21,228 bases of DNA from a virus, in IMG/VR virus record IMGVR_UViG_3300025141_000932, positions 1-21,228 of that record; one strand, 5' to 3'. Of this stretch, positions 12,040 through 20,366 are shown piece after piece. The notes beneath the pieces are model-generated. The model did not search any database, was not told the DNA's origin, and worked only from the letters and a program-made list of their open reading frames with translations. Both the position numbers and the translations under genes were made by a program. Position 1 is the stretch's first letter; the number at the start of each line of letters is the position of its first letter.

Positions 12040-12762
12040 TCAGGCCTTTGCGTATGGGTCCGGCACGTCCTTGTAGGTGATCCCCTTCATTATTCGGTAG
12101 CTGGTTATATATGAAATCCCAAATAGGTCGCAGGCCTCCTTGTCCGTTAGCTTGGTGTTTCGCCAAATATCCCGGAAGTTTTGGACCTCCCTATCAGTCA
12201 GTTTTCGCATTTCTCTAGCGTTTTTTTGCAACTGCGCAATATCGTGAGTGACCAGGTTGTTTTTATGCGCGTGAATAGCGTTTTCCTTAGCGGTGACCCA
12301 TTCAAGATTCCAGACCTGGTTGTCTGTTTTGCACCCGTTTATGTGGTTTACGAATGGCTTGTTTTCTGGATTTTCGATAAAGGTTCTTGCCACCAATCGG
12401 TGCATCCAGTACATCTTTCTTATCCCATTGGTTATAATCTCAACCCACTCATATCCATCGTAATGGAGCATCGGGTTTAGATTCCTGCAGCTGGCTAAGG
12501 ACCATATATTTCCCTCTATACTGACTGCGTACCGGTCTTCAAACCCAGGGACCCATTCATATCCTTTTGGCTTGTATTTGACCATTTTTTTTAGGGTGTT
12601 TGCCGAGTATTGAATTTTCCCCTCGTTGGTATAAAGTCTGTAAGAATTATTGTTATGTGAAATAAACCCATCTGACGCACGGCTAAATACTCCGCCATCC
12701 TCGTCCATGTAATATTTCCCGTTCGTCCCCGGTATCTCCTTCATGTTTTCTATTGTTTCCAC
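12040..12762 (-). CDS. Free-standing HNH homing endonuclease
   Basis: A 240-residue homing endonuclease with GTG start at 12762 and a good AGGAGA ribosome binding site 7 bases before it. The order of domains is: an N-terminal part about 1-60 with another short domain-like stretch (N-G-K-Y-Y-M-D-E-D-G-G); NUMOD4-like segment about 68-100 (W-V-P-G-F-E-D-R-Y-A-V-S-I-E-G-N-I-W-S-L); HNH_3-like nuclease about 118-165 with H121, H140, N142 and N152 (H-R-L-V-A-R, V-N-H-I-N-G, W-N-L-E-W-V-T); and a C-terminal helix-turn-helix about 188-235 (L-T-D-K-E-A-C-D-L-F-G-I-S-Y-I-T). Such genes cut phage genomes at unoccupied sites and copy themselves. It is not within an intron here. Its presence may explain the break between portal and protease. 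Confidence 0.9.
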   Translation of the reverse strand: METIENMKEIPGTNGKYYMDEDGGVFSRASDGFISHNNNSYRLYTNEGKIQYSANTLKKMVKYKPKGYEWVPGFEDRYAVSIEGNIWSLASCRNLNPMLHYDGYEWVEIITNGIRKMYWMHRLVARTFIENPENKPFVNHINGCKTDNQVWNLEWVTAKENAIHAHKNNLVTHDIAQLQKNAREMRKLTDREVQNFRDIWRNTKLTDKEACDLFGISYITSYRIMKGITYKDVPDPYAKA

Positions 12763-12842: not shown

Positions 12843-13295
12843 TTAATGCCCCTTTGCTCTGCCGTAGGCCCTCCAGGCTGTTTCGACCTCCTTGTATAAC
12901 AATCTGTTCTCTTCTTCGAGCCGCTCGATCTTATCTTCCTTGGCTTTGTCTCCACCAAGCGCATACGAAACTGACAAAGACTTCATTTGTCCGTCAGTAA
13001 GCGCGGCCATCTTTACTCCGATGGCCTTGGCAAATTCGCGACTCTTAGCTGTGTTTTCTGAGCTGGCCACCATGATTGCGCATTCCATCCCCAAAAAATG
13101 GTCTATTTGCTTCCGTCCCCTACCGGGATTATTTTTACTCAAATTTGAGTAAAAATCCTTCTCAGGCACGAATTCCCATTTTTTGATTACCCTTGGAGCC
13201 CAATCGTTATAACGGCTATCTACCCCAATAGACCCATGTATTTGCCGCATACTTACGAGCTTTTTGTTCTTACCTTCTATTTGCACTAAGTTCAT
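12843..13295 (-). CDS. AntA/AntB-type antirepressor
   Basis: A 150-residue antirepressor-family protein. Residues about 14-93 carry the pattern of the family: V-S-M-R-Q-I-H-G-S-I-G at the start, W-A-P-R-V-I-K-K-W-E-F-V-P-E-K-D-F in the middle, G-R-G-R-K-Q-I-D-H-F-L and A-K-S-R-E-F-A-K-A-I-G-V. A C-terminal helix (about 117-140, E-R-L-E-E-E-N-R-L-L-Y) looks like a coiled coil, replacing the C-terminal DNA-binding domains of many relatives. Such proteins inactivate phage repressors to promote lytic growth. AGGAGG 6 bases before the ATG is strong. Start and stop overlap a tiny upstream membrane peptide (ATGA). The RHH gene at 13417 is divergent, as in the P22 immI region. Confidence 0.87.
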   Translation of the reverse strand: MNLVQIEGKNKKLVSMRQIHGSIGVDSRYNDWAPRVIKKWEFVPEKDFYSNLSKNNPGRGRKQIDHFLGMECAIMVASSENTAKSREFAKAIGVKMAALTDGQMKSLSVSYALGGDKAKEDKIERLEEENRLLYKEVETAWRAYGRAKGH

Positions 13296-14029: not shown

Positions 14030-16240
14030 CTATGGCTCTACGCTTGGCGCAGGCACTCCCACGTGATTAGGATGATAGTCGAGCGAGGATATCTGTGAAA
14101 CAGGTATGTCCTGCCAGCCACAGCTGCCGACCTCTTCACTTCCCCCTACCCTGACGCTTAGTCCCGTACACCCTACGATGTCCACGGTGTTAACGCCGAT
14201 TTCTTTGTATGCGACTTCAGCGCCCTGGTCGTAGGCCTGTCTACTTTCGGTTCTGGCGATCATTCTAGACCTCCAGCTTTCGTACTTCACGAACCTTGTC
14301 TGAATGTTCGTTGATATTTCGGCTATTGTTAGGTCTTCGCTAACTCCATTTGTAATGATCTTAGCTATATCTCGTCGTGTTGACTCATTGATTCTGGTTA
14401 CTTTTTTACCTAGAGAGGCAATCGAAACCCGGACGAAGTCATTTGATGTGTTGGGGTTTACGTTGGAGTTTGTTATGTCGTTTAGATCTCCGATGGCTCT
14501 TTGAACTCCTGAGGTGTGCAAGGGTTTCGATGTGGCCTTGAGAGACTCATCTTCCTCAACTGAGAGTAAAATCCCAGCGATCATGGACGGGGTCATGCCC
14601 TTTAGGGATGTCTTTTTGTCGTATTTTTCGCCATTTATCTCGACGTCCTTATCGAAATTCAGGGTTATTGTACCTACAGTATCGAAATACTGGTAAGACT
14701 TTGCCGCTCCGAGGAGGTCGTTAAAGGCTTTGCGTACACGAACCTTCTGGGACTTGAAGAATGAGTCGTATTTAAAAGCGAACTTATCTTCGAGCTGACT
14801 TCTTGTTTTAAGTCCGGCGCTTAGGAATTTCCCCTGGAATTTCTTTGGTTTTGTGGCTGACTTTAGGAATAGCTCTGTTATCTCACTGAAATTCTTTGGA
14901 TTACTCAGGTCGACCTTTGGGGTATCCTTCGTGTCGTCGCTCTTACTTTCGTTTTTTTTAAGGCGGTTTAGGCTTGATTTCCCTGTTTCTTCGCTTGACT
15001 CATCAAAATTGCCAAAGGACCCTAATTCGAAGTTTGCTCCTGCCATGTAGAAGGTGTTTCTAGCTTCATCATTGTCATCAAAGGGGAGGCCAAGTCTCTT
15101 GCTGGCCTCATTTGGAGTGATAAACCCGTTCCGAACCATGATTTGAAGTCGTTCGACGTCGCCTGTGAAGTGTTTTTTGAACTTAAACTGCAGTGATTTA
15201 TCAAACATACTGACATGCTGGCTGGTTATTGCCTTTTCCAGGTTTTCGAGGATTGAATTGATATTTGAGTAGTATCGGACCATTGACTGCTCGATTGTAG
15301 ATCTATTGCTGTTTTTAGTGACGCCTACGGCCTCTGGGACGACCCCGAACAGGGAAAGTACGGTTTCTTTGTTATATTCCTTTTGTTCAAGCCACTGAAG
15401 GTCTTTATGTGATATCTGTAGAGGCTTTGCATCGACGCCCTTCCCTGAGAGGTACAGGATGTTTCCTGCGTTGTTTGAACCTTGATACTTCTTATTTAGG
15501 AGCATCATGTTTCTTTGCAGTTGTTTTTCATCGAACTCCATCTCGTCCTTGATGAAGAGGCTTGGAGACGCTTTATTTCCCATAAACTCGGAATTGAATT
15601 GGTCCGCATTCATTTCACCCTCGGCCATGGTCCTCATCTTTTCGACCTGTCCAACGCCCCAAAATGGTGAGTAAATCCGGTTTTGTGAGAAGTGAATCAC
15701 ATCCTCTATTGGAACTGTCAGAATCTTTCCTTTTCCAAGGGTCAGTTCATAGGCCTCTATTCTTGTCTCGCTCATTGTGAGTTTGACCTTAAATGACCCT
15801 GGGCAAATCGGGATGAGAGAATCTGAAATTCCTCTGCTAACTGACAGCGCTGTTGTAGGAGCCTTCCACAGTAACCCGTTTCCGGTTAACGCCATGTGCC
15901 CGACGATGGTAGCCATTAGGTCTGGAAGACTGTTGAATCCTGCGCCACCCTCTAGGGGGTCAATAATGGATCGAGATACACGCCGGGATCTTGACTCTCC
16001 TGGTTCGTACACGATATCCCCTTTCGCGTTTTCGATATGCCAGGTCTGTCCACCAGCGTCTCGCATTAGCGCGTCGACGGCTACCGCAATCCAGGGTAGC
16101 TTTTTATAGGTCCCGATCTCATCGCTCGTGGATCGTATTTCATTTGAGGATAGCGAGAAGTCTCCAAATGCTTGTGAGTTATATGGGTCTGATTTTTTAC
16201 TTGTTGTTAGGAATCTCTTTATTTGTTTTACAAAAGACAT
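14030..16240 (-). CDS. Portal protein fused to a MuF-type minor head domain
   Basis: A 736-residue fusion. The start is ATG 16240; a longer frame opens from 16318 but crosses the terminator. Residues about 20-410 are an HK97-type portal: G-N-G-L-L-W, the Y-Q-G-S-N-N-A-G-N-I-L-Y-L segment, then P-L-Q-I-S-H-K-D-L-Q-W-L-E and F-G-V-V-P-E-A-V-G-V. After a charged linker (about 430-480) comes a long helical stretch, and residues about 600-736 match the Mu gpF/SPP1 gp7 type: R-M-I-A-R-T-E-S-R-Q-A-Y-D-Q-G-A, C-G-W-Q-D and Y-H-P-N-H at the end. The portal is the DNA gate of the prohead; gpF proteins bind it or travel with the DNA. No toxin domain follows MuF. Confidence 0.88.
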   Translation of the reverse strand: MSFVKQIKRFLTTSKKSDPYNSQAFGDFSLSSNEIRSTSDEIGTYKKLPWIAVAVDALMRDAGGQTWHIENAKGDIVYEPGESRSRRVSRSIIDPLEGGAGFNSLPDLMATIVGHMALTGNGLLWKAPTTALSVSRGISDSLIPICPGSFKVKLTMSETRIEAYELTLGKGKILTVPIEDVIHFSQNRIYSPFWGVGQVEKMRTMAEGEMNADQFNSEFMGNKASPSLFIKDEMEFDEKQLQRNMMLLNKKYQGSNNAGNILYLSGKGVDAKPLQISHKDLQWLEQKEYNKETVLSLFGVVPEAVGVTKNSNRSTIEQSMVRYYSNINSILENLEKAITSQHVSMFDKSLQFKFKKHFTGDVERLQIMVRNGFITPNEASKRLGLPFDDNDEARNTFYMAGANFELGSFGNFDESSEETGKSSLNRLKKNESKSDDTKDTPKVDLSNPKNFSEITELFLKSATKPKKFQGKFLSAGLKTRSQLEDKFAFKYDSFFKSQKVRVRKAFNDLLGAAKSYQYFDTVGTITLNFDKDVEINGEKYDKKTSLKGMTPSMIAGILLSVEEDESLKATSKPLHTSGVQRAIGDLNDITNSNVNPNTSNDFVRVSIASLGKKVTRINESTRRDIAKIITNGVSEDLTIAEISTNIQTRFVKYESWRSRMIARTESRQAYDQGAEVAYKEIGVNTVDIVGCTGLSVRVGGSEEVGSCGWQDIPVSQISSLDYHPNHVGVPAPSVEP

Positions 16241-16261
16241 GGTCACCGCCGTAGATTTAAT

Positions 16262-16299
16262 AAAAAAAGGCAAGACTCCTATGCGGGAATCTTGCCTTT
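16262..16299 (-). terminator. Intrinsic terminator in the portal leader
   Basis: Minus strand: AAAGGCAAGA pairs with TCTTGCCTTT, with a further short inner stem (TTCC/GGAG), then seven T. It ends about 22 bases upstream of portal ATG 16240. Together with element 16294-16316 and the promoter-like sequence at 16339 this forms a compact attenuator-like leader. Confidence 0.85.
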
Positions 16300-16316
16300 G
16301 GTATTTGCCAATCAGC
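16294..16316 (-). repeat. Leader element copy 2 (portal leader)
   Basis: Begins GCTGATTGG and ends CCAAAGGC on the minus strand and merges with the terminator stem. It differs from copy 1 (11303-11325) at three of 23 positions. The TTGG...CCAA dyad is conserved. Confidence 0.75.
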
Positions 16317-16338
16317 ATAAATATTTGAACTAATTTAA

Positions 16339-16359: not shown

Positions 16360-17802
16360 TTAGCTCACTCCGATGCCTAGTCTTCCTTTGTCGTCCTCTA
16401 AGCAAAGCAGTAAGGCGTCTCTCAAGTCATCGTGAGGTGGGTTGTTGTTTGTGATCTGCTCTACAAGCTCTTCTCTAGTCTCTCGGTCTATGTCTGTGCT
16501 GATAAAAACCTTCCCGTTTTCGAACTTGGCGGACTGTTTTTCTAGCCTGGAGAGCTTGTCCTTTACTGCGGTTATCAACCTTACCGGAATCCCGGTGGTT
16601 CTCCTTAGCTCATCTCCGTATAATTTGAATGCTGATATTGATTCAATTTTTACTAGGTCGAACTGATAGGTGTCGTATAGCCGCATTGTGTGCTCAAGGT
16701 TCTTATGGAAGGACATTTTGCAGTTCTCTGCTCCGAGAACGTAGTAGTTTTCATAGCTTGTTTTTGCGACCCATACTTTGCCCGTGAAGTCATTATGAGA
16801 CTTCTCCCCTATTGCGGGATCAATTCCGCACCAAAGCCACTCTAAATCTTCTTCATCTGGGATGGCACCGTCGAAGTATCGAATATGTTCCATCTTCACC
16901 TTTGATTCGGCATCACTTCTACATTCGTTCTGCATTTCTCGATCAAAGGCGATGGCGCCCATTTGGGCTCTGTCCGTCATGAGGGTTTTGAAGGTGTTGT
17001 TCTCTGGCCAAAGGACCACTTCCTTTACCCAGTCTGTTACTGCCTGAAATTTTTTGGTGTGCCAGTTCTTTTGAAGTGCCAATCGATGCATCAAGTCTAG
17101 TCGATGTATTGCTGTTCCCTGTATGTGTATCACGGACTGCTTAGATGTTGACATGGCCTTGTATAGGGAGGCCCAAAACCACCGTTCTTTTTTCTTGATT
17201 CGTTCAATGTTGTAGGCATCCTCGTCGTCGTATAGGTCATCAATTACCATGTAGTCGGGCCTTTTGTTCTTGTAATGTATGCCCCGGACACTTTCTCCAG
17301 CGCCGATGGCAGAAAAGATAACGCCATTTGCCAATACGAACTGCTTTTCAGTCCATTTACCTGGCCCTACGATCTCCCCGTAATCAGCAATAAGCTTTTC
17401 GTTGTTTTCAAACTCTTCCTTAATCGTAACGTTGACGTTTATCGCCTTTGAGGTTGTTGATTGGACGTTTAGGAAGTGCTGATACTTTTCTGGGAAGTTT
17501 AGTGCGAGATAGGTTGGTATTAGGAAGCACGATATCGTTGTTTTTGCGTGTCCTCTTGGCGCCAAAGTGGCTGTTTGAGAGGTGTGCATATTGTCGACAA
17601 GGTAATTGTGCAGGTCTGGACAGAATGCTTTGTCGAACTTATCAGGGAAATAGTATTTTCCCCAATTCAAAACGCTCGATTTTCGGAAGTTGAATCGGAT
17701 TGCTCTCAGCATCTGACCGGCAAATGAGGTGTCGATAATCCCGGCCTCGAGAGATCTCTTTACGACCTTAAGCTGCCTTATTGATTGACTTTTTGGATCC
17801 AC
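16360..17802 (-). CDS. terL: Terminase large subunit
   Basis: A 480-residue terminase large subunit: ATPase motor plus nuclease for genome packaging. ATPase motifs: Walker A A-P-R-G-H-A-K-T-T (81-89), Walker B Y-M-V-I-D-D-L (184-190) with D188/D189, coupling motif Q-G-T-A-I-H (228-233). Nuclease residues: D328 in G-I-D-P-A, E387 in K-I-E-S, and D459 in H-D-D-L-R-D-A-L. The GTG start at 17802 overlaps the preceding gene by 35 bases; its ribosome binding site is distant (GAGGAA, about 14 bases away), so the exact start is uncertain, but there is no better one before residue 31. The strategy (cos or pac) cannot be read from this. Confidence 0.95.
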   Translation of the reverse strand: MDPKSQSIRQLKVVKRSLEAGIIDTSFAGQMLRAIRFNFRKSSVLNWGKYYFPDKFDKAFCPDLHNYLVDNMHTSQTATLAPRGHAKTTISCFLIPTYLALNFPEKYQHFLNVQSTTSKAINVNVTIKEEFENNEKLIADYGEIVGPGKWTEKQFVLANGVIFSAIGAGESVRGIHYKNKRPDYMVIDDLYDDEDAYNIERIKKKERWFWASLYKAMSTSKQSVIHIQGTAIHRLDLMHRLALQKNWHTKKFQAVTDWVKEVVLWPENNTFKTLMTDRAQMGAIAFDREMQNECRSDAESKVKMEHIRYFDGAIPDEEDLEWLWCGIDPAIGEKSHNDFTGKVWVAKTSYENYYVLGAENCKMSFHKNLEHTMRLYDTYQFDLVKIESISAFKLYGDELRRTTGIPVRLITAVKDKLSRLEKQSAKFENGKVFISTDIDRETREELVEQITNNNPPHDDLRDALLLCLEDDKGRLGIGVS

Positions 17803-18142
17803 TTATTTGTTTTATTTCCTCTTCTAGGTCGATCACAACGCTGTCGGATATTCTGGCAGCATCAAATGTGGAAGTTTTAACGTCAGCCTCAACCTTGAAC
17901 TCTTTTGGCATAAATGGGACGACAAAGCGCTCATAGAACTTTAATGGGTTTCTCTTGCAGCTCTTGCGAAGTTCCGTAACAAACAGCTCTTCGTTTTGGG
18001 AAAAAACATCCAAGATTAGGTTCTTTGCTCTGGTAAGCTTGTTTATTCCTGACGTGCCCCCAAAAGCGTTTCCAGAATGTCCTTTTATATACCGGCCCTT
18101 GTCGTCCCTCTTTGCTAAATCACTAATGGATCGTAATGTGAT
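17768..18142 (-). CDS. Probable terminase small subunit, non-canonical (ATC) start
   Basis: The gene preceding the large terminase. A version starting at TTG 18013 would give 81 residues, but the frame is open further up, to a TGA at about 18170, and encodes a recognisable motif in the upstream part: K-G-R-Y-I-K-G-H-S-G-N-A-F-G-G (about 15-29), like the G-R-F-x-x-G-x-S-G-N-P-x-G motif of DUF5681-type small terminase-associated proteins. The only good ribosome binding site (AGGAGG, 18154-18149) lies 6 bases before ATC at 18142, so I place the start there (124 residues, rare start). Downstream are helices (L-F-V-T-E-L-R-K-S-C, F-Y-E-R-F-V-V-P-F). The function is from position; the start is an inference. 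Confidence 0.65.
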   Translation of the reverse strand: MTLRSISDLAKRDDKGRYIKGHSGNAFGGTSGINKLTRAKNLILDVFSQNEELFVTELRKSCKRNPLKFYERFVVPFMPKEFKVEADVKTSTFDAARISDSVVIDLEEEIKQISGSKKSINKAA

Positions 18143-18148
18143 GACCTG

Positions 18149-18154
18149 CCTCCT
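18149..18154 (-). promoter_or_regulatory. Ribosome binding site with no canonical start codon after it
   Basis: AGGAGG on the minus strand. The next codons are CAG-GTC-ATC-ACA-TTA; there is no ATG, GTG or TTG at usable spacing. It implies an ATC (or similar) start for the terminase small gene. Confidence 0.75.
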
Positions 18155-18174
18155 GCGTTTTTGGATATGGACTC

Positions 18175-18183
18175 ATTATAGCA
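18175..18183 (-). promoter_or_regulatory. Packaging-operon promoter with extended -10
   Basis: Minus-strand TGCTATAAT is a consensus extended -10. The -35 region (ACTAGT) is poor and lies within the palindrome next to it. It would start transcripts about 20 bases before the AGGAGG of the terminase small gene. Confidence 0.75.
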
Positions 18184-18187
18184 ATAA

Positions 18188-18200
18188 AGTGGTTACCACT
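18188..18200. promoter_or_regulatory. Palindrome at the -35 region of the packaging promoter
   Basis: AGTGG-TTA-CCACT, overlapping the spacer and -35 position of the extended -10 promoter and the stop codon of the lipoprotein gene. It is probably an operator. Its outer sequence resembles the inverted repeat at 12776-12799 (TAGTTGTAACCAACTA versus TAGTGGTAACCACTTT, 12 of 16 identical). Confidence 0.55.
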
Positions 18201-18558
18201 AGTCTATCCAGTCCATGAGGTAGGAGATGTCGTCGTAATCGTCATGCGAGTCAATTCGTCTGAAAAAGCCCGTCCCTTCAGCTGATTCACCTGGGCCAAC
18301 CTCTCCGCCGTTGAGGAAGCGTATAGTTGCTTCATCGACTTTTACACCATGTTTTATTGCGGTTACTGAGAGGGTTACATATGTTGCCACCCCATCTCCT
18401 TTATTCTTTACTACAGCGGTTACATTGGGAGAGCCCCAACTTGCCATACCGTAATTTGTGCTCACGACAGAAAAGTCTGCTGTCTTTTTCTCTGAAGGGC
18501 CGGTCATGGCACACCCTGCACTAAATATTGCCAGCAGTATAATCAATACGACAATCAA
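18199..18558 (-). CDS. Lipoprotein with FxLYD-like domain, lysogeny-type gene
   Basis: A probable lipoprotein: hydrophobic signal ending in F-S-A-G-C (Cys16), then a globular beta domain with V-V-S-T-N-Y-G-M-A-S-W and T-A-V-V-K-N-K-G-D-G-V-A, the strand-and-turn pattern of FxLYD-type domains, ending in G-F-F. The start is uncertain. TTG 18558 has AGGAGG 6 bases upstream (18570-18565), giving a signal lacking basic residues; an in-frame GTG at 18591 would add a basic N-terminus (Y-R-R-K) but has a weak ribosome binding site and overlaps the recombinase. It sits between recombinase and terminase, where small lysogenic genes such as superinfection-exclusion lipoproteins are found. That role is an inference. 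Confidence 0.75.
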   Translation of the reverse strand: MIVVLIILLAIFSAGCAMTGPSEKKTADFSVVSTNYGMASWGSPNVTAVVKNKGDGVATYVTLSVTAIKHGVKVDEATIRFLNGGEVGPGESAEGTGFFRRIDSHDDYDDISYLMDWID

Positions 18559-18568
18559 TAATTTCCTC

Positions 18569-20194
18569 CTATATGGATTTTTGTAATTCACGTTCTTTTG
18601 CCCCTTTCTTTTTTAACGAAACTGATTTTTTATAGACGTTTGAGGCTAAAAGTTCGTAAAGGGCTCGATTAGGGCTACCAAACCGTTCACTGTACGAACT
18701 TCTGTCTACCGGCATTTTCCAGAAAACATCAGCTGACTCATCCGTCATTTCTATTTTCTCTATTGTTTTAGAGACACTGTCTTTGTTTAAGAAGTTCACC
18801 TCCTGTACGATTTTCTTTAGGTCGTTCACAAAAGACTTGAATGTGCTTTTGTCCTGGATATCGAATGGGCCATTCAAGTCCATGAATCTGGTAATTCGAA
18901 CCTTTCGAGATTCAAGCTCTTTGATTTCGTTTTTTAGCATTCGAAGTCTTGGAGCTACATCTTCGTAGGTTATCGCCCCTCCTTCTTCGATAACATTTAT
19001 CAGTTTCATGTATCTCTTGTTCTTGTCCTCGAGATCGGAGCCAATTGTTACGAGGTCTTTTTCTGAATCGTCATGCTTTGCCTTCATTTGCTTCATGAGA
19101 TCTACGGCGATTTTTTTGATGACGGATTTGTTCAGGATGGTTTTAGCCACTAGGTTCAACACTTTATTGTCTAGGTCTTCACGCCGAATTGGTTTGTAGG
19201 TACATACAGATGGCCCATGCTTAGTGCTTCCTATGCACTTATAATATTCGTACCGAACCCCCTTGCTTCCGTACGCTGATACACCCGACATTTTACTTCC
19301 ACAATTATTGCAGTGGAGAAGCCCCGATAGGATATAGCTGTTGTTCACTTTAGACCTAGATACATGTCTCTTTTTCAGCATACTCAAGACGAGGGCGGAA
19401 TCTTCGGGTGTGACAATAGATTCATGGGCGTTTTCTGTTGCGACGGAATCATGTCCGTGTCGATTATTCTTGTTGAAGACCACTGTTCCGGAGTAAACGG
19501 GGTTTCTTAAGATGCTGCCCACAAATGCCGGGGTGAACAATTTGTTGGCCCTTGTTTTGTATCCCGCCTCATTGATTTCTAGCGCTATTGTCTTTTGGCC
19601 CTTACCTCCACGAATGTACAATTCAAAAATTCTACGAACGATTTCGGCTTCGGGATCGCAAACCCGAAGTTTGTTCTTTTGGCCTCCGTTATGATCGATC
19701 TTTTCAATGGCGTACCCGTAGGGTGCCCTACCCTGCCAGAACCCAAGCTTTGCCCCTTGAATCATCCCCTTCATGGATTCTTTAGCCAGGTTCTTACTAT
19801 ATGAGTCTGCTAGCGCCTCGTATAGAGATTCCATTACTACCCCATATGGGCTCTCGTGATCTACCGGCTCTGAGACAGAAACTACTACCGCCCCATTTTT
19901 GGATAGCTTTCGCTTGAAGACGATTTGATCGTACCTGTCTCGACCAAATCGGTCGTATTTATGGACGAGAACTACGTGAAACCCCTTTTCACCTGAGTCG
20001 TCGATCATTTCCATGAAGGCATCTCTTTCAGCCGTCCTTCCGGAGATGGCTTCGTCGATGTAATGGTTTACTATCTCAATATTGTTTTTGTCGGCATACG
20101 ATCTGCAAGCTTCAATTTGCGCTTGTATGCTGAATCCGTCTTTTTGCTTTTGAGAAGAGAACCGGGCGTAGATTACACCTTTCTTTTCAAGCAA
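18569..20194 (-). CDS. Large serine recombinase (integrase)
   Basis: A large serine integrase of about 541 residues (TTG start at 20194 chosen, as it lies where family members begin; ATG starts at 20248 and 20236 overlap deep into the upstream gene). The resolvase domain has V-I-Y-A-R-F-S-S with catalytic Ser at residue 13, a conserved I-S-G-R-T-A-E-R-D-A-F and H-K-Y-D-R-F-G-R-D. Then come the recombinase domain (A-P-Y-G-Y, L-R-N-P-V-Y-S-G) and a zinc ribbon with Cys 295, 298, 320 and 331, followed by a long coiled coil. It catalyses attP/attB recombination during lysogeny. It is translationally coupled to the RHH gene upstream (stop overlaps start region). Excision would need a separate directionality factor, not evident here. 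Confidence 0.93.
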   Translation of the reverse strand: MLEKKGVIYARFSSQKQKDGFSIQAQIEACRSYADKNNIEIVNHYIDEAISGRTAERDAFMEMIDDSGEKGFHVVLVHKYDRFGRDRYDQIVFKRKLSKNGAVVVSVSEPVDHESPYGVVMESLYEALADSYSKNLAKESMKGMIQGAKLGFWQGRAPYGYAIEKIDHNGGQKNKLRVCDPEAEIVRRIFELYIRGGKGQKTIALEINEAGYKTRANKLFTPAFVGSILRNPVYSGTVVFNKNNRHGHDSVATENAHESIVTPEDSALVLSMLKKRHVSRSKVNNSYILSGLLHCNNCGSKMSGVSAYGSKGVRYEYYKCIGSTKHGPSVCTYKPIRREDLDNKVLNLVAKTILNKSVIKKIAVDLMKQMKAKHDDSEKDLVTIGSDLEDKNKRYMKLINVIEEGGAITYEDVAPRLRMLKNEIKELESRKVRITRFMDLNGPFDIQDKSTFKSFVNDLKKIVQEVNFLNKDSVSKTIEKIEMTDESADVFWKMPVDRSSYSERFGSPNRALYELLASNVYKKSVSLKKKGAKERELQKSI

Positions 20195-20366
20195 CAGCTT
20201 TTTTACCTCTCTTGGCTGTGGGTTGAGTTCGATCATGTTTGTCAACATAGTCAGACGCTATTTTGACGAGAAGGTTATTGAGAGACCTTTTATCAAGATC
20301 CGCCATTTCCTTCATTTTCTTCTTTAAGGCTTCTGGAAACCGCACATTTATTGCTTGATTTGACAT
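20187..20366 (-). CDS. RHH regulator preceding the recombinase
   Basis: A 59-residue RHH-type protein starting at ATG 20366: strand Q-A-I-N-V-R-F-P, helix 1 (E-A-L-K-K-K-M-K-E-M-A-D-L-D) and helix 2 (S-L-N-N-L-L-V-K-I-A-S-D-Y-V), then a basic tail ending K-R-G-K-K-A-V-A. It has no ribosome binding site; TATTGT ends 6 bases before the ATG. It is the third RHH gene in the window and overlaps the recombinase start, so it may regulate integration or serve as directionality factor; both are inference. Confidence 0.75.
   Translation of the reverse strand: MSNQAINVRFPEALKKKMKEMADLDKRSLNNLLVKIASDYVDKHDRTQPTAKRGKKAVA

Follow-up and report, generated by a model that had tools for sequence, protein, structure and literature searches.

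A phage small terminase gene that probably starts at an AUC codon behind a perfect Shine-Dalgarno sequence

Small terminase genes (terS) of the DUF5681 type (PF18932), such as L007/L027 among the loci collected in this study, share an N-terminal F-K-P-G-x-S-G-N-P-type motif, lie upstream of and overlap the large terminase gene terL, and start at ATG, GTG or TTG. The terS gene described here, found in a virus record of 21,228 bases that was analyzed in full (the window), has the same kind of motif and position but would start at ATC, and its protein does not match that Pfam model. AUC starts are rare but documented, and judged from its sequence terS appears to be a clear example of this known kind. 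The infC/dsg gene of Myxococcus xanthus naturally starts with AUC, as terS would, although it is a cellular gene and not a terminase. The infC gene of Escherichia coli, encoding IF3, has an AUU start that limits or regulates its output (papers cited within PMC9845219) and is autoregulated by IF3. The two genes would be alike in having a near-cognate AUN start codon, but infC is a host gene with AUU and IF3 autoregulation, and terS would have AUC, with no such loop evident. The literature searched yielded no phage gene with an AUC start, although this does not prove that no case is known. If AUC is truly used, terS would be a natural phage case of near-cognate initiation aided by a perfect Shine-Dalgarno (SD) sequence, in a gene of the packaging motor.

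The terS frame lies on the minus strand, where it follows the in-frame stops TAA 18178 and TGA 18175 and reads open from 18172 as far as its own stop, which ends at 17768. The first-pass annotation of this DNA, in which every coordinate proved correct, had claimed that no ATG, GTG or TTG lies ahead of TTG 18013 and that a perfect AGGAGG stands 6 bases before ATC 18142. Reading of the frame confirmed the former, with TTG 18013 lying 53 codons past the upstream stops, and at base level the order is AGGAGG (18154-18149), CAGGTC, then ATC (18142-18140). The motif noted upstream of the TTG, G-R-Y-x-x-G-x-S-G-N, was found between the two codons as GRYIKGHSGN, and the N-terminal G-x-S-G-N motif is present in the terS product (GRYIKGHSGNAFGG). 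Gene finders limited to ATG, GTG and TTG would call terS 43 residues short, losing its sole recognisable motif. Between 18172 and TTG 18013, no other in-frame candidate has a comparable SD; ATA 18088, itself part of the motif region, is preceded by just AAGG at 8 nt. No RNA structure hiding the terS start was found, the leader not being unusually structured (z 0.94). We put at roughly 80% the probability that the gene encodes a small terminase subunit (TerS) of DUF5681-like type and that its translation begins at AUC. The small-terminase identity and the ATC start had both been put forward in the first-pass annotation, and they are supported by the position of the SD, gene order, a second contig that has the same bases, and homology reaching upstream of TTG 18013.

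Table 1. Coordinates of terS, its neighbors and the candidate initiation signals in the window
Feature	Position	Strand	Remarks
terL, large terminase subunit	16360..17802	-	PHROG 38 E 8.6e-59; GTG start
terS, probable small terminase subunit (DUF5681-like), 124 aa from ATC 18142	17768..18142	-	Open frame; homologue L014 in equivalent place; directly upstream of terL
TTG, first canonical start codon of the terS frame	18011..18013	-	No SD; would remove conserved N-terminus
17-codon out-of-frame ATG ORF (MSPYPKTQEAGHHITIH)	18123..18176	-	TAG end over ATT 18127; ATG overlaps -10 box
Proposed start codon ATC	18140..18142	-	6 nt after AGGAGG; identical in L001
Perfect Shine-Dalgarno AGGAGG	18149..18154	-	
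Putative extended -10 promoter box TGCTATAAT	18175..18183	-	Sole exact match in window; predicted transcript start near 18168
Inverted repeat AGTGGTAACCACT then TTTATT	18188..18200	-	Directly after stop of upstream gene
Lipoprotein-like gene, TTG start	18199..18558	-	AGGAGG at 6-nt spacing as for ATC (internal calibration)
Other AGGAGG-led starts, 5-7 nt	TTG 11249 (head protease), ATG 11796, ATG 13295 (AntA-type antirepressor), ATG 13751, TTG 18558	-	

With 13 occurrences of AGGAGG on the minus strand of the window, the chance of finding one 5-9 nt ahead of a given codon is about 0.003, and the arrangement AGGAGG-N5-9-ATC has a single instance on the minus strand, with none on the plus strand. 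The same hexamer precedes five other plausible starts in the window by 5-7 nt (three ATG and two TTG, all on the minus strand; Table 1). A late first canonical start is by itself weak evidence: of the 39 stop-to-stop frames that span 100 codons or more, five lack a canonical start in their first 30 codons, and the four of these other than terS run across called genes of the opposite strand or of a different frame. The case for the ATC start is carried by homology and the SD. In the terS frame, codon log-odds reach 0.195 bits per codon from 18142 to 18014, against 0.011 and -0.129 when that stretch is read in either of the remaining frames. They keep to about that level from 18013 to 17771 (0.230) and drop to -0.358 over the eight codons ahead of ATC. 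Of the open off-frame segments, 9.7% reach the score of the stretch between ATC and TTG. These stretches are short, and the statistic backs coding upstream of TTG 18013 in a supportive but not decisive way.

To collect the genes upstream of terL, we used relatives of the large terminase subunit (TerL). One of these loci, L014, has a homologue of the window TerS in the equivalent position. The two proteins are identical at 26% of 104 aligned positions (BLASTP E 1e-9 for the pair), and phmmer, run against every ORF of the retrieved loci, gives E 2.8e-7. The alignment runs from GHSGN to near the C-terminus, across the TTG 18013 boundary, and the L014 gene begins with ATG seven residues ahead of its FKPG motif. 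A gene with an F-K-P-G-Q-S-G-N-P-type N-terminus also lies upstream of terL in about a dozen other loci; the motif takes the form FKPG.SGNP.GRP, and in most relatives some 3-11 residues separate it from the start. A start at TTG 18013, the first canonical start of the frame, would give an 81-residue product without the motif; because the L014 gene and the dozen others begin with a G-x-S-G-N-P-type motif, this short product would be a truncation. Such a start would also lose part of the stretch shared with L014, has no SD match 3-13 nt ahead, leaves the AGGAGG unexplained and ignores that the frame ahead of it is still coding-like, and we regard it as quite improbable. The comparison with homologues that had been proposed as a check supports an N-terminus carrying the motif upstream of TTG 18013; the ATC start was used by none of the relatives examined. 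Their best start candidates are ATG or, often, a weaker codon, GTG (L022) or TTG (L015, L016 and L031), several with recognisable SDs. The start codon of this gene drifts, as L022 carries GTG and its close relatives L023, L026 and L032 carry ATG.

The L007/L027 TerS matches PF18932 with an E-value of 5e-17. For the window TerS there is no PF18932 match above the Pfam cut-off, and we therefore name it DUF5681-like and not a member of the family. In searches of viral contigs, genome contigs, phages and plasmids, the only close TerS homologue was that of the near-identical contig L001 (IMGVR_UViG_3300002518_005091), and the L014 TerS as query found no viral contig besides its own, and one phage with a weak DUF5681 match. 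Solved structures gave no significant match to TerS, and a structure model from a two-sequence alignment had a mean pLDDT of 48.8, a confidence too low for use. The C-terminal 44 residues of TerS had a Pfam BamHI match (E 0.006) that fell below the cut-off and was taken as chance.

L001 agrees with the window along 6206 bases except at four sites, each an N in L001 and each outside terS; the search of viral contigs found no other contig with the DNA around the terS start. The true start might be ATG or GTG, with the ATC, or the frame, resulting from an assembly error or from a recent mutation in the sampled population. ATG is one substitution away from ATC, and, as noted above, the relatives examined all lack an ATC start. 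This reading, also raised in the first-pass annotation as a sequencing error or local frameshift, is improbable as well: L001 has the same ATC, even if the two contigs may represent one population and not independent samples, and the site has no homopolymer. Conservation of the ATC is seen only in a near-identical contig that is possibly of the window's own population. A real recent mutation to ATC would still require initiation at ATC or leave the gene weak.

Just upstream of terS is the putative extended -10 box TGCTATAAT. Its exact sequence is expected 0.77 times by chance in the window, and no -35 box was found by it; the position is the argument for a promoter. A transcript from near 18168 would have a 26-nt leader and start past ATG 18176. 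The inverted repeat farther upstream scores as a weak terminator, perhaps of the preceding gene, but could equally be an operator lying upstream of the -10 box. Rfam and tRNA searches had no match. The 17-codon ORF from ATG 18176 offers another route into the terS frame, by re-initiation at ATT 18127, where its TAG overlaps the candidate start (ATTAG). This is the classical re-initiation layout and would keep the motif, but neither ATG 18176 nor ATT 18127 has an SD (none at usable distance for the latter), and the ATG lies at the -10 box and would be absent from the predicted transcript; we find this very improbable. A +1 frameshift joining the two frames, which overlap from 18172 to 18123, is less credible again, with no slippery codon of the prfB kind ahead of the TAG, the SD about 20 nt from that stop and the same ATG lacking an SD.

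AUC initiation remains the preferred reading. The best explanation is that the phage is tailed and probably temperate and that terS opens its packaging and head operon. Transcription would probably begin near 18168 from the extended -10 promoter, and the perfect AGGAGG in the leader would set the 30S subunit with AUC 18142 in the P site, where initiator fMet-tRNA could start by a third-position mismatch, the strong SD partly offsetting the poor codon. In one leader context, AUC, AUU, AUA and CUG work at 5-20% of the AUG level in C. butyricum and at 7-17% in C. sporogenes, but at only 0.1-0.3% in E. coli, a figure that weighs against AUC initiation (PMC9680021 for the rates), and IF3 disfavours weak third-position pairs in vitro (PMC10158994). 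Because these near-cognate rates are low, TerS output would be expected to be low too, with the proviso that rates from these three species may not be those of the phage host. A TerL profile search of genome contigs gave one distant match in a Bacteroidales MAG, of no help for the host.

The terL start, GTG 17802, lies inside terS with no SD, and the genes overlap by 35 nt; the TerL N-terminus is comparable with those of L004, L014 and L027, and an overlap of the two genes recurs in nine relatives examined. This arrangement suggests that terL translation is coupled to terS, in which case weak terS translation may limit TerL too and the AUC may govern how much of the entire terminase is made. 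That the ATC keeps terminase levels low, as first proposed, is plausible from the published initiation rates. Selection of AUC as a dosage control, setting TerS and through coupling TerL so that packaging is delayed or low, possibly in response to the IF3 level of the host, is speculation that we consider unlikely.

Several other genes on the minus strand of the window deserve mention. A large serine recombinase (18569-20248; PHROG 95 integrase, E 3.9e-104) suggests a temperate phage, and the 3' end of its gene contains the SD of the next gene. That gene, between the integrase and terS, encodes a small lipoprotein-like protein having a hydrophobic N-terminus with SAGC, and its listed start, GTG 18591, is less convincing than TTG 18558, which follows AGGAGG. 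An AntA-type antirepressor (12843-13295; Pfam E 7.7e-11) has an unusual location within the structural gene cluster. An HNH endonuclease gene with a weak NUMOD4 match (12040-12762), probably a homing endonuclease, lies between the portal and head-protease genes. Portal and head-morphogenesis functions seem to be fused in 14030-16318, where the portal has a C-terminal Mu-F-like head-morphogenesis segment that is weak in Pfam and clearer in PHROGs. For the head protease, TTG 11249 (AGGAGG at 7 nt) is probably the start, in place of the listed TTG 11270.
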